From Ancylobacter sp. SL191 (GTDB lineage Bacteria; Pseudomonadota; Alphaproteobacteria; Rhizobiales; Xanthobacteraceae), in the NCBI RefSeq assembly GCF_026625645.1, contig NZ_CP113056.1, positions 2,021,001-2,085,000 on the forward strand: a stretch of DNA of 64,000 nt, read 5' to 3'. Made by a program: the position numbers and the translations under genes. The notes under the pieces were generated by a model, which ran no database searches, was not told where the DNA came from, and saw nothing but the letters and a program-made list of their open reading frames with translations. Below, one piece after another: positions 11,348 through 51,078 of the stretch (positions are counted from its first letter, which is position 1; the number at the start of each line of letters is the position of its first letter).

Positions 11348-11668
11348 GGACTGGTGATGCCGCTCTTGATCGGTGGGTACGGAAGTCGGACGGAAGGGAC
11401 GGGCCGCAGGAGCTTAGCCGCTACCGCAGATGAATGACATATTCGTTATAACGCGCGGCGCCGCGATCAGCTCCACGTGTTTTTTGCGATGCAATAGCCG
11501 CGCCGCGCCTGAGATTATAGGGCGCGCGGATGAACAATCACGGACCGGCCCACTCGGCATCCGTTCATCTGCGTGCTGGCGCATCTTTGATTCCCTCACC
11601 CCCGTTAAGCGCTTGGAAACCGTGATGCGTCCCTAATCCGGCCTTGGGTTCGCGTAAGGGTAAGCGTC
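11348..11668. other. 321-bp divergent promoter region of galU and the lytic transglycosylase
   Basis: No gene is visible. On the minus strand a TATAAT hexamer (complement of 11514-11519) is a good -10 candidate for galU, but its -35 is weak (CGTGAT at 17 bp). The GC-rich self-complementary GCGCGGCGCCGCG near 11454-11466 is unexplained. I found no convincing plus-strand promoter. Confidence 0.4.
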
Positions 11669-25302: not shown

Positions 25303-26088
25303 TCAGCCCTGCTGGAGCACCTTCAGCGCGGCTTCGTGGGTGCGCGGGTCGCCAGCCGCGATCACCCGGCCGCTCGACAGGTCGCTGGTGCCTTCCCAGC
25401 TCGTGACAATGCCGCCCGCGCCGCGAATGACCGGCACCAGCGGCAGGATGTCGAAGGCCTTCAGGTTGGTCTCGATGACGAGATCGACATGGCCGGCCGC
25501 CAGCATGCAATAGGCGTAGCAGTCGCCGCCATAGCGCGGCAGGCGGGCACGCTCTTCCACCGCGCGGTAGCGGGCGCGGTCGGCCTCCTCCATCAGCAGC
25601 GGCGAGGTGGTGAGCAGGATCGCGTCCTCCAGCGCCGCGCACGCGCGCACGTGCAGGCGCCGCTCCCCGGCCGGGCCGCGATAGCGCGCCGTGGCGCCGT
25701 CGCCATAGAAGCGCTCGCCGATGAAGGGCTGGTGCATCATGCCGTAGGCCGGCTCATCCTCGCGGCACAGGCCGATCAGCGTGCCCCAGGCGGGCAGGCC
25801 GGTGATGAAGGACTTGGTGCCGTCGATCGGGTCGAGCACCCAGACATATTCCGCGTCGAGACCCTCATCGGGGAATTCCTCGCCGCGCACGCCATGGCTG
25901 GGGAAATGGCGACGGATCAGCGTGCGCATCGCCTGCTCGGCGGCGCGATCGGCCGCGGTGACCGGATCGAAGGCACCGCCGCTGTTCTTGTCCTCGACGC
26001 CGATGGCGGTGCGGAAGAAGGGCAGGATGGCCTGGCCGGAGACGGTCGCCAGTTCGTGCACGAAAGTCTCGAAATCCACCGCGCCCAT
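25303..26088 (-). CDS. hisN: Histidinol-phosphatase, inositol monophosphatase family
   Basis: A 261-residue Mg-dependent phosphatase of the inositol-monophosphatase fold. It has the metal-binding motifs GEEFPDEG, WVLDPIDGTKSF (Asp about 86) and NLKAFDILPLVPVIRGAGG. In alphaproteobacteria the branch with this size and these motifs is usually HisN, removing phosphate from histidinol phosphate in histidine synthesis; SuhB-like inositol monophosphatase is the alternative. Start ATG is 26088 (MGAVDFETFVHELATVSG); the frame continues to 26280 without family resemblance. Its upstream side carries suhB-class small RNAs, a class named for lying near an inositol-monophosphatase-family gene. Confidence 0.85.
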   Translation of the reverse strand: MGAVDFETFVHELATVSGQAILPFFRTAIGVEDKNSGGAFDPVTAADRAAEQAMRTLIRRHFPSHGVRGEEFPDEGLDAEYVWVLDPIDGTKSFITGLPAWGTLIGLCREDEPAYGMMHQPFIGERFYGDGATARYRGPAGERRLHVRACAALEDAILLTTSPLLMEEADRARYRAVEERARLPRYGGDCYAYCMLAAGHVDLVIETNLKAFDILPLVPVIRGAGGIVTSWEGTSDLSSGRVIAAGDPRTHEAALKVLQQG

Positions 26089-26306
26089 GCGCCCCGCTCC
26101 CGCTGCCCGCCGGCCGCCCGGCGCTTTCCCGCAACGCATATCGGGCCGCGCCCGGCTCGGCAATCGGCCGGGCGGGGGGGGCATGGGGGTGTGGCAGGGG
26201 TCGCTCGGATGATGCGCGTGGCACGCTGAGGTGCGCGCCTCACCTGCTGCGCGCTCAGCGCATGGCTGCCATTCCGACAAGATGAAGGAATGGGCATGCC
26301 TATCCG

Positions 26307-26337
26307 TTGCGCTCAGGCAGTGAAGCTGCCATATTAT
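26307..26337 (+). promoter_or_regulatory. Possible promoter of small RNA copy 1
   Basis: TATTAT (26332-26337) is a good -10 box. The best -35, TTGCGC (26307-26312), is 19 bp away, which is longer than usual. Transcription would start about 26344. Confidence 0.4.
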
Positions 26338-26353
26338 TGCAGCGCGGTAAGGC

Positions 26354-26441
26354 GATTGGCGTTGCCCTACCGCCGCCCTCCTTGGGCGTTTCCTCCCTAG
26401 ACTTGGGCCGCTCCGGCAACGTGAGCGGCCCCTTTCTTTTT
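26354..26441 (+). ncRNA. Trans-acting small RNA of the suhB / MmgR (alpha-r8) family, copy 1
   Basis: This copy runs from GATTGGCGTTGCCC to the T-tract CCTTTCTTTTT. It has a short first hairpin (GCCC-CUCCUU-GGGC region), the single-stranded UUUCCUCCCUAGACUU core and a strong terminator stem (GGGCCGCTC / GAGCGGCCC). The core sequence and shape are those of Rfam suhB RNA, the family of Sinorhizobium MmgR, which limits polyhydroxybutyrate storage. A 33-base block (26381-26413) is identical in all three copies here. The true 5' end may lie nearer 26344. Confidence 0.85.
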
Positions 26442-26648
26442 ATAGCCCATTGAAATCGTTGAATATTATCCTTCCGCCCGATCAAGGGGCCGGCGAGCAG
26501 CAATCGTGCGTGCGATGCCGCGTGCCGCCACGCGGCTCCCGACGCCAACGCTGAGTTGGTCGTCGGCGGCGATGCGCGCACGGGGCGCGTTTGGCGTCAT
26601 TCGCGCTCACGCTCTGGTGAGGTGGGTTTCGTTTCTTTCGTTTGAGCC

Positions 26649-26677
26649 TTGCTATTTGTGCGATGCACCGGTATATC
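26649..26677 (+). promoter_or_regulatory. Promoter of small RNA copy 2
   Basis: TTGCTA (26649-26654) and TATATC (26672-26677) are separated by exactly 17 bp, a good sigma-70 match, and would start transcription near 26684. Confidence 0.6.
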
Positions 26678-26696
26678 AACCTCAGTGCCCGGGCGT

Positions 26697-26785
26697 GATT
26701 GGCGTCGCGCCCCGGCCGCCCTTCTTGGGCGTTTCCTCCCTAGACTTGGGCCGCTCCGCTTTCGCGCGAGCGGCCTCTTTCTTTT
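26697..26785 (+). ncRNA. Small RNA of the suhB / MmgR family, copy 2
   Basis: It has the same order of parts as copy 1: GATTGGCGTCGC, hairpin GCCCTTCTTGGGC, core GTTTCCTCCCTAGACTT, then the terminator stem GGCCGCTC / GAGCGGCC and TCTTTCTTTT. The shared block is at 26724-26756. The terminator loop and the 5' stem differ from copy 1, while the core is identical, so selection acts on the core. It lies 343 bp after copy 1. Confidence 0.85.
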
Positions 26786-27201
26786 CAGCACCCCAAAAAG
26801 CTCAGCTGCTGTCGCTCGCTCGCCGGAGGCGCGCACCTCATTTGCCCTTCATCGAGCGCGGTGGCGCTGGGCCGGCGCGTTACTGGTCGCATGAGGGTAG
26901 GCGCAGCGCCCTGCGCGCGGATCGACGCCGCTGCGTGGGGCTAAACCCGTGCAAGCGCCAAAGGTGGGCTCGCCGTTATTGCGAGTGGGAAGGGGCGCTC
27001 TGGGGGATGACGCGACTCAGCGTCTTCTGGTGGCACTGGCCCCAAAACAAGCAAGGCCCGCATCGGGCGTCTCGCGGTGGGCGAGGCGGGAAGCGAGCCT
27101 TTATGAAGATGTAGCGGTCGCCGGGCGGGCCCTTATCGCGGCAATTATGTCACACGGCGAGGTTTGCGTATCTGGTATGCCAGAAAGTGGCGGTGGGTGC
27201 C

Positions 27202-27228
27202 TTGATTATTCCGCAATGCACCTACATC
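27202..27228 (+). promoter_or_regulatory. Possible promoter of small RNA copy 3
   Basis: TTGATT (27202-27207) and TACATC (27223-27228) are spaced by 15 bp, slightly short. The -10 box lies 18 bases before the conserved GATTGGC, as in the other copies (16 and 19). Confidence 0.35.
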
Positions 27229-27246
27229 TTCCAACTCGTACGCAGC

Positions 27247-27334
27247 GATTGGCGTCGCTCCGTACTGCCCTCCTTGGGCGTTTCCTCCCTAGACTTGGGC
27301 CGCTCTCGCTTCGCGTGGGCGGCCTCTTTCTTTT
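27247..27334 (+). ncRNA. Small RNA of the suhB / MmgR family, copy 3
   Basis: The third copy has GATTGGCGTCGCTCC, hairpin GCCCTCCTTGGGC, the identical core, and terminator GGGCCGCTC / GGGCGGCC (one G-U pair) followed by TCTTTCTTTT. The shared block is at 27273-27305. It lies 550 bp after copy 2 and 275 bp from the end of the N-formylglutamate amidohydrolase gene. Confidence 0.85.
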
Positions 27335-27608
27335 GTGTCGGGTCGGATGGGTCGCGCCGGCTGCTGCCGATCTTCGTCACATCCGCTTGGCGTTCCCGAC
27401 ACCCTGTCCGGGTGGCTGGTTTTCAGGGCGTTCTCTCCCGGCCGCTTGTCGCGGTCTCGACCCTTTTTGGGTGAGGGATGAACTGCCCGGATCCGAGCGT
27501 GCAGAATTCGTATAGCTCTCATGTCCAAAATGCAAGGCTGTTATGCGGCCTTTTGCATGGTGCGATCACATTTTTGTAGTTTTCGGCGCAAGTCATTGAA
27601 AAATGGGC

Positions 27609-28496
27609 TTATTCCGCCGCGGCTCGGCTTGCCGTGAGTTCCACCTGGGCGATTTTACCCAGGGCTGCCGCTACCCCGATAAGGTCGGTACGGACAGTTT
27701 CGAAGGCATCGGATGCCCGATAAGTGGGCTCATGCATATAGAGCGCGCGGTTGATCTCGATCTGCACCGCGTGAACGCCCGAGGCCGGGTTGCCGTAATG
27801 CTCGGTGATGAAGCCACCCGCATAGGGCTTGTTGCGCACCACCGAATAGCCCCGCCGGCGCAGCTCATTCTCCAGCACCTCGGCGATTACCGGCGCGCAG
27901 CTCGTGCCGTAGCGATCACCGATCACCATGTCGATGCGGGAATGGTCCTCGCGCTGGCAGCCCGACGGCATGGAATGGCAGTCCACCAGCACCGCCATGC
28001 CGAAGCTGCGCTGCAACTGCGTCATGATCTGGCGCAGCGTGCGGTGATAGGGCTTGTAGAGCGTGTCGATGCGGGCGATCGCGTCGTCGATCGGGATGCG
28101 CCGGGCATAGATCTCCTGCGCCTCGCCGACGATTCGGGCGATGGTGCCGAGCCCGCCGGAAACGCGCATGGAGCGTGTATTGGCATAGGCCGGCAGGCGC
28201 CCCTCGAACATACGGGGGTCGAGCTCATAGGGCTCGCGGTTCACGTCGAGATAGCAGCGCGGGAAATGTGCCCGCATGAACGCCATGCCGAGCTGCGTGA
28301 CGTCGGCGAACAGCGCGTCGACCAGCGTGTCCTCCGAGCGGCGCAGCAGCGGCAGATCGAGCCGCGACTGCTCGACGAAGGCGCGCGGATAGACGATGCC
28401 GCTATGGGGCGAATTGAACAGGAACGGCAGGGCCGGCTGGGCCGGCATAACGACCTCAAAGGCGGGATCGATGGTTTCGGCAATGACAGCCATCAT
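27609..28496 (-). CDS. N-formylglutamate amidohydrolase family protein
   Basis: A 295-residue zinc-dependent amidohydrolase (FGase family, related to HutG) that would release glutamate from N-formylglutamate, the last step of one histidine degradation route. Conserved features are FNSPHSGIVYPRAF, VNREPYELDPRMF, the metal-site segment VLVDCHSMPSG, and DRYGTSCAPVIAE. No other hut genes are nearby, so the true substrate may be different. The gene is divergent from cpdR, a pairing seen in many Hyphomicrobiales. The start is at or near 28496 (MMAVIAETIDPAF). Confidence 0.88.
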   Translation of the reverse strand: MMAVIAETIDPAFEVVMPAQPALPFLFNSPHSGIVYPRAFVEQSRLDLPLLRRSEDTLVDALFADVTQLGMAFMRAHFPRCYLDVNREPYELDPRMFEGRLPAYANTRSMRVSGGLGTIARIVGEAQEIYARRIPIDDAIARIDTLYKPYHRTLRQIMTQLQRSFGMAVLVDCHSMPSGCQREDHSRIDMVIGDRYGTSCAPVIAEVLENELRRRGYSVVRNKPYAGGFITEHYGNPASGVHAVQIEINRALYMHEPTYRASDAFETVRTDLIGVAAALGKIAQVELTASRAAAE

Positions 28497-49835: not shown

Positions 49836-50962
49836 GCGGCGCTTATCTCCTCGCCGCCCGCCGCACCGCGGTGGCGCCCCGGCGCGGCGCGTTCAACGCG
49901 GTGGAGGCGCATGATCTTGCCGCCCCGGTGCTGCGCGCGTGCCTCGCCGATGCCGGCATCCCGCCCGAGGCGGTCGGCCATGTCATCCTCGGCAATGCGC
50001 TGTCCGGCGGCGGCAATGTTGCCCGTCTCGCCGCGCTGGCGGCCGGCATTCCGGCGCGGGTGCCGGCGTTGACCCTCGACACGCAATGCTGCTCCGGGCT
50101 CGACGCCATCGCGCTCGGCGCGCAGCTCGTCGCGAGCGGCGCGGCGGAGATCGTGCTGGCCGGCGGGGTGGAAAGTTGGAGTCGCGCGCCGCTGCGCGCC
50201 CGCCGTCCGCGCGGGACGGACGAGGCGCCGGCCTTTTATGAGCGCCCGCCCTTCAGCCCTTTCCCGGATGCCGACCCCGACATGCTGGAAGCGATGGCGG
50301 CGCTGGCCGCCGAGCGCGGCTTTGACCGTGCCACCCAGCATGGCGTCGCGGTGGACAGCCACGCCAAGGCCCGCGCGGCCCGCGATCGCATGGCGGCGGA
50401 GATCGTGCCGGTGGCCGGGCTCGACCACGACGCCTTTACCCGCGACCTCACCCCTCGCCTCGCCGCGCGGGCCCCTCTCGTCGCCGGCGAGGGCGCCTGC
50501 GCGCTCGATGCCACCACGGTTGCGGTGGAGGCGGATGCGGCCGCCGGCGTGCTGATCGTCTCCGCCAAGGTGACGGAGCGCCTTGGCCTGCCCTCCTGTA
50601 TCGTCACGGCGTCAGCGTCGGCGGGCGGTCCACCTGAGCGGCCCTATGACGCGCTGGTGCCGGCAGTGCGGGCGGTGCTCGATCAGGCGGGAAGCGCACT
50701 CGACGTGCTCGCCGTGCTCGAACTGATGGAAGCCTCCGCGCCGCAGCTTCTGGAGAACCGGCGCCATCTCGATCTGCGGGGCGAGCCGCTCAACCGGGGC
50801 GGCGGGGCACTGGCGCGCGGCCATCCCGTGGGCGCGTCCGGCGCCATCCTCGCGGTGCGGCTGTTCCACGAACTCACGCGGGAGAAGCCGGAGGCTCTGG
50901 GCCTTGCCGCCATCGCCGCTGCCGGCGGTCTCGGCAGCGCGCTGATGCTGCAGCGCAGCTAA
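49832..50962 (+). CDS. Thiolase-family acyltransferase, last gene of the biotin operon
   Basis: A 376-residue thiolase-fold protein. The acyl-accepting cysteine is in LTLDTQCCSGLDAI (Cys86), and the conserved histidine is in GGALARGHPVGASGA. However, the C-terminal second catalytic cysteine (CxG in normal thiolases) is replaced in AAIAAAGGLGSALML, and the usual NEAFA motif reads MEASA. It may therefore carry out only part of the thiolase reaction, or a condensation like the KAS enzymes. It is translationally coupled to the ligase (ATGA). Confidence 0.83.
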   Translation: MSGAYLLAARRTAVAPRRGAFNAVEAHDLAAPVLRACLADAGIPPEAVGHVILGNALSGGGNVARLAALAAGIPARVPALTLDTQCCSGLDAIALGAQLVASGAAEIVLAGGVESWSRAPLRARRPRGTDEAPAFYERPPFSPFPDADPDMLEAMAALAAERGFDRATQHGVAVDSHAKARAARDRMAAEIVPVAGLDHDAFTRDLTPRLAARAPLVAGEGACALDATTVAVEADAAAGVLIVSAKVTERLGLPSCIVTASASAGGPPERPYDALVPAVRAVLDQAGSALDVLAVLELMEASAPQLLENRRHLDLRGEPLNRGGGALARGHPVGASGAILAVRLFHELTREKPEALGLAAIAAAGGLGSALMLQRS

Positions 50963-51078
50963 GCCTTTGTTTGCGTGCGGCCTCCGGTTGTGCAGGATTG
51001 CTGACTGGAATCATTCTCTCGGACGTCGCGCCGGCGCGGGGGCAGGAGCGGACCTACGGGAATGGCGGACGCACCGGA

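Follow-up and report, generated by a model that had tools for sequence, protein, structure and literature searches.

Three units of the alpha-r8 small RNA family (suhB/MmgR, RF00519) lie side by side in the window, by which we mean the whole 64,000-nucleotide stretch of Ancylobacter sp. SL191 DNA that was analysed, and their membership in the family is confirmed. They are probably three separate trans-acting small RNA genes of the MmgR/SisA type, kept as a fixed trio, jointly controlled by PhaR and blocking the translation of uptake genes. At the sequence level, this reading is carried by family membership, a locus followed through 30 genomes, boxed promoters, a hairpin with an invariant loop, and terminators shared between copies. 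As to mechanism, PhaR would repress all three copies when there is little storage polymer, with a tightness set by the position of its box, and the three RNAs would rise together when PHB granules bind PhaR. The GGCGUUUCCUCC stretch of the RNAs, probably with the help of Hfq, would pair with GGAGGAAACGCC(A)AUG-type ribosome sites, and this pairing would block the translation of uptake genes, e.g. those for solute receptors.

The RF00519 covariance model, with a curated gathering score of 41 bits, matches the plus strand at 26368-26446, 26711-26791 and 27260-27340 with 66.7, 60.4 and 57.8 bits for copies 1, 2 and 3, respectively (E 1.5e-11 to 2.7e-9), and the intergenic region thus holds the three family members predicted in the first-pass annotation. 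A search of the whole genome (4.65 Mb) found these three alpha-r8 copies and no others above the cut-off. A possible fourth copy was rejected, the next-best match (31.5 bits, L004) being terminator-like and without the UUUCCUCCCU core. In a permissive Rfam scan of 26089-27608, three extra matches appeared, all far under the cut-offs of other families, and no other Rfam family in the cluster exceeded its own cut-off. The 64-kb window contains the identical 33-base block reported earlier exactly three times, at 26381-26413, 26724-26756 and 27273-27305.

The predicted fold of every copy starts with a 5´ hairpin and a small hairpin, continues with a single-stranded core and closes with a terminator stem that runs into T-rich sequence. 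Including the T-run, the RNAs have a predicted length of 98-102 bases, instead of the 88-89 bases first assigned to the units. All three read on the plus strand: copy 1 extends over 26342..26441, with the loop ATTGGCGT at 26355-26362 and the core 10-mer at 26389-26398; copy 2 over 26684..26785, with the loop at 26698-26705 and the 10-mer at 26732-26741; and copy 3 over 27237..27334, with the loop at 27248-27255 and the 10-mer at 27281-27290. That a terminator ends every unit holds for the stem and the T-rich tail, which are seen in the model alignment and the fold of all three copies, but a terminator scan run on its own listed those of copies 2 and 3 and missed that of copy 1. The description of the units as functional-looking duplicates with preserved pairing stands. 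The UUUCCUCCCU core, 3´ of the small hairpin, is predicted from sequence and fold to be single-stranded in each copy, in agreement with its proposed role as the likely pairing site.

The cluster is flanked upstream by a hisN-type gene of the inositol monophosphatase family (25303..26088, minus strand; PF00459, 167.9 bits) and downstream by an N-formylglutamate amidohydrolase (FGase) gene (27609..28496, minus strand; PF05013, 243 bits). The suggestion that hisN is the characteristic neighbour is right in that a PF00459 gene adjoins the cluster, but the usual neighbour of the family is the FGase gene on the other side. Most species have a single alpha-r8 copy beside the FGase gene, and many genera have several copies, some of them adjacent, as described in PMC12559287. 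Because the family and its adjacent copies are already published, membership as such is ordinary and the kind of arrangement known; the trio is a new instance of a known family. In Ancylobacter, all 30 genomes searched carry exactly three alpha-r8 copies per cluster, with hisN before and FGase after the cluster in 30/30. Across the family Xanthobacteraceae the RNA is present in 147 of 149 genomes. A scan of named genomes with a pattern that selects for GATTGGCGT gave 66 stretches; three matches were found in 15 of them, 13 of which are named Ancylobacter, and single matches occurred in Xanthobacter, Azorhizobium, Aquabacter, Kaistia, Prosthecomicrobium, Bauldia and Microvirga, among others. 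The distribution is best explained by a trio that became fixed in the genus at an old hisN-FGase site. Extra copies away from the cluster were observed in three genus genomes (L167, L168, L169, L170), one of them on another contig and without the loop; the off-site copy L168, from one genome, has an altered loop tip and a terminator mismatch.

The 5´ hairpin lies outside the Rfam model and can form in all three copies as well as in the other alpha-r8 copies read. Its loop AUUGGCGU, with the tip ATTGGCGT, is invariant in 90/90 genus copies, counted in genomes found by the RNA search and not in the loop-selected named stretches. The stem below it changes while pairing is maintained: over the inner six pairs of 53 distinct hairpins, 276 of 318 cells hold standard pairs vs 229.6 in shuffles (sd 4.6, max 245). 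Per copy, covariation exceeds the shuffled maximum in copy 1 (118 vs 117) and copy 2 (102 vs 97), and copy 3 scores 60 vs a shuffled mean of 59.6 (max 61), where covariation support is missing because the stem hardly varies. Selection on this invariant loop is strong. In a wider search, the exact core 17-mer was found in 166/297 genomes of the order, and an exact-pattern search, which misses variants, found the loop in 8/297 genomes and 2/122 genera. Among the named stretches, 12 of Xanthobacter/Azorhizobium/Aquabacter type have two alpha-r8 copies each, and those of Kaistia/Prosthecomicrobium type have one loop-bearing copy beside hisN and FGase in 8/8; neither gene was found in the Microvirga stretch. 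At seven family loci, hisN and FGase flank a pair in which one copy has the loop and one does not. In some lineages, the loop has thus probably long been part of the hisN-FGase site.

The first-pass annotation gave each copy a promoter of its own, and pattern matching bears this out, with hexamers separated by 17-base spacers on the plus strand: TTGCGC-N17-CATATT at 26307..26335, TTGCTA-N17-TATATC at 26649..26677 and TTGATT-N17-CATCTT at 27202..27230 for copies 1 to 3. The predicted starts, at about 26342, 26684 and 27237, are close to those first claimed (26344, 26684 and 27236). All three hexamer pairs are weak matches to the consensus, and a consensus promoter scan called no plus-strand promoter. 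Each of these promoters has a PhaR-type box. We scored 21-bp sites with a matrix of 30 chosen Sinorhizobium sites from Table 3 of PMC12542648, leaving out that of mmgR itself; as a benchmark, the known mmgR site scores 24.2 bits and the training median is 21.8. Out of 63,980 positions in the window, the box of copy 3 (27206..27226; 20.2 bits) ranks 1 and that of copy 2 (26653..26673; 18.4 bits) ranks 2, both in the -35/-10 spacer, and that of copy 1 (26332..26352; 16.1 bits) ranks 4 and lies over the -10 and the predicted start. With a repeat matrix made from 66 PhaR sites, the three promoters rank 2, 4 and 1.

The boxes recur in the genus, counted at a threshold of 10 bits. Copy 1 has one in 22/30 genomes with the 30-site matrix and in 24/30 with the 66-site matrix, and copy 2, in either place, in 20/30 and 17/30, respectively; copy 3 has its box in the -35/-10 spacer in 30/30, reaching the threshold in 28 with either matrix. 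In the family and order, 57 of 64 alpha-r8 promoters carry a box of at least 10 bits vs 19 of 2,548 control windows from which second-copy promoters were excluded (32 of 2,857 with them included); the 64 copies come from 56 loci (30 best-scoring, 20 first-listed by pattern and 6 loop-selected) and are not a random sample. Without the six loop-selected loci, the count is 51/58 vs 19/2,266. Of the 57 boxes, 19 are spacer boxes and 38 lie over the start and thus over the RNA 5´ end, and the latter could be kept for RNA reasons. The genome has a PhaR gene (PF07879, 108.2 bits; C1:2012497-2012679), 8.3 kb before the window, and PhaR-type boxes of 26.5, 24.4 and 23.0 bits in front of two of the three phasin genes. 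In S. meliloti, the mmgR promoter is bound by PhaR in gel shifts and loss of PhaR raises MmgR, according to PMC12542648, and a review (PMC8401924) names a dyad between the -35 and -10 of this promoter. Control of the trio by PhaR is our best inference. Two further PhaR-type boxes were noted in the window, next to ORFs that were named by sequence reading only: one at 50943-50963 (rank 3 with 16.8 bits), where a thiolase-like ORF ends ahead of a DeoR-like regulator ORF, and one at 11479-11499 (13.1 bits; rank 5, which becomes rank 3 with the 66-site matrix), flanked by a galU-like ORF and, in divergent orientation, a lytic-transglycosylase-like ORF.

The earlier proposal that the copies may answer different signals is less well supported: the promoters are separate and the box places differ, but all three share a top-ranked PhaR-type box. 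That box at all three promoters, together with its enrichment across the order, makes a single carbon-storage signal common to the copies more likely than three unrelated signals, and its differing position predicts different strengths of this one signal; further inputs besides PhaR may exist. We therefore regard it as unlikely that the copies are sub-specialised siblings which respond to different signals and act on the same targets, in the manner of SisA-D of Caulobacter. The promoter sequences do differ outside the boxes, that of copy 3 is nearly fixed in the genus and that of copy 2 variable, and the Caulobacter copies have unrelated promoters and distinct expression (described in PMC12559287). 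However, the boxes of all three Ancylobacter copies rank within the top four of the window, and no second known operator was identified, NtrC and sigma-54 sites aside. Plain dosage, in which gene conversion keeps redundant duplicates similar and no copy has a role of its own, is a possible explanation, if still an improbable one. It agrees with the identical core of the three copies in the window and with the terminators of copies 2 and 3, which are the same within a genome in 9/30 genomes vs a shuffled mean of 1.64 (max 5), three terminators shortened by the search pattern being counted as different. Gene conversion between copies seems the simplest reading of these shared terminators. They comprise three clearly distinct loop types, with several of the nine genomes having one type, and several of the nine may represent one event. 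Sharing between copies 1 and 3 is restricted to 2/30 genomes, which shuffles also reach (mean 0.17, max 2), and between copies 1 and 2 to 0/30, and copy-specific promoters and 5´ stems have been kept across the genus, the promoter of copy 3 most, all of which speaks against duplicates that serve dosage alone.

Targets of the core are predicted from start-site complementarity. The sample comprised 80 genome stretches and the window (1.66 Mb), with 1,221 start sites called by a simple and noisy gene caller. The candidates are two TctC-family solute receptor genes (L216, L298) and a secreted-type 188-aa protein, with start sites like GGAGGAAACGCCAAUG, and in addition L218; their pairing ranks are partly due to selection, as they were found by searching for complements of the core or loop. 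The 188-aa protein, whose start looks signal-like by eye, has no match in Pfam and occurs in 29/30 genus genomes (L361-L389). Its start site AGGAAACGCCAATG is kept in 19/29 orthologues, with a ribosome site more constant than the leader ahead of it, and for each copy a 12-base duplex with this start is predicted, more stable than the separate folds by 13.0 to 14.8 kcal/mol. An exact AGGGAGGAAA 2-11 bases ahead of an ATG was not found in the genome. Phasins were rejected as direct targets of the core, since their three start sites rank only 1145, 762 and 622 of 1,221 for core pairing; the phasin effect of MmgR in S. meliloti may itself be indirect. Separately, a start-like GGAGGCAACGCCAATG is conserved upstream of a short ORF of 26-28 codons, whose peptide is poorly conserved and which is closely followed by a longer ORF (L331, L332, L334, L335 = G000:C1:1334577); the conserved element was considered as a known Rfam RNA and this was rejected, as no family exceeded its cut-off there.

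The invariant loop invites two further explanations. One is a two-seed RNA: the core would bind the ribosome site, and the loop AUUGGCGU, the complement of ACGCCAAU, would bind this sequence where it separates that site from the start codon. The candidate start sites do show complementarity to the loop, in the right order. In start regions, CGCCAATG occurs 7 times vs 1.5 in column shuffles (max 6 of 200), with 5/7 at the called start, and GCCAATG 12 times vs 4.9, but ACGCCAAT itself occurs once vs 0.45, and the shuffles ignore neighbour dependence. For the pattern GGAGG-N1-4-ACGCCAATG, 7 genus genomes give 24 occurrences and 142 other genomes of the family give 60, compared with 20 and 237, respectively, for a control pattern with another base before ATG; the Fisher value of 6e-6 is inflated because the genus matches are largely orthologues. 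The excess is absent from g41 (9 vs 38), which has the loop in the three genomes of it that were read. The start-site sample from the relative G122, with 300 starts, is too small to weigh either way. The predicted complexes pair the core alone and leave the 5´ hairpin closed. On balance, we hold the two-seed RNA to be highly doubtful. Likewise unlikely is the alternative that a protein or a second RNA, e.g. a sponge, docks on the loop and sets the level or stability of the RNA. The loop is fixed in 90/90 copies on a changing stem, as a docking site might be, and alpha-r8 siblings of Caulobacter are under the control of the sponge CrfA; yet CrfA pairs with the core and not with the 5´ loop (both according to PMC12559287). 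A genome search for a CrfA-like complement of the core, TAGGGAGGAAACGC, found none with fewer than two mismatches outside the three genes and 21 with two mismatches vs 15 for the reversed control, with shorter or broken complements escaping such a search. Rather improbable, too, is the broader proposal of an alpha-r8 sub-lineage with AUUGGCGU as a second invariant loop, PhaR-controlled and tripled in Ancylobacter, whose two-module RNAs would clamp both the ribosome site and the start codon of uptake genes.

The preferred reading, three PhaR-controlled genes acting through the core, can be placed among known systems. Judged from sequence, the trio resembles MmgR of Sinorhizobium meliloti (RF00519) in its core, its terminator, a PhaR/AniA box near the promoter and the build of an Hfq-type small RNA. 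However, MmgR is a single copy of 77 bases, whereas Ancylobacter has three copies of a predicted 98-102 bases whose 5´ hairpin is longer and whose loop is invariant, and phasin start sites pair poorly with the core in Ancylobacter, unlike what MmgR might suggest. PMC12559287 describes MmgR as the only alpha-r8 member characterised before SisA, for which core-mediated repression and sibling RNAs were shown in Caulobacter crescentus. SisA-D similarly are several siblings with UUUCCUCCCU, and SisA lies beside an FGase gene (PMC12559287), but these copies are dispersed and have unrelated promoters, whereas those of Ancylobacter are clustered and all have PhaR-type boxes. A further parallel is found in SmelA075/SmelA099-type small RNAs with CCUCCUCCC loops, which are alphaproteobacterial, multi-copy and endowed with an anti-Shine-Dalgarno motif, as described in PMC3927594; there, the motif is in the loops of repeated hairpins, and in the trio it is single-stranded between hairpins.

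The first-pass annotation had not noted the invariant loop, the FGase neighbour, the likely exchange of terminators or the fixation of the trio in the genus. In the literature searched, we did not meet this fixation, the PhaR-type boxes common to the copies but differing in position, the loop that the Rfam model leaves out or the shared terminators, part of which may be published. The analysis would extend the link to PhaR from mmgR of S. meliloti to most of the alpha-r8 promoters examined in the order. The trio constitutes a natural three-copy system in which the position of the box varies and the core of the RNA is constant, and its invariant loop is open to test by single mutations.
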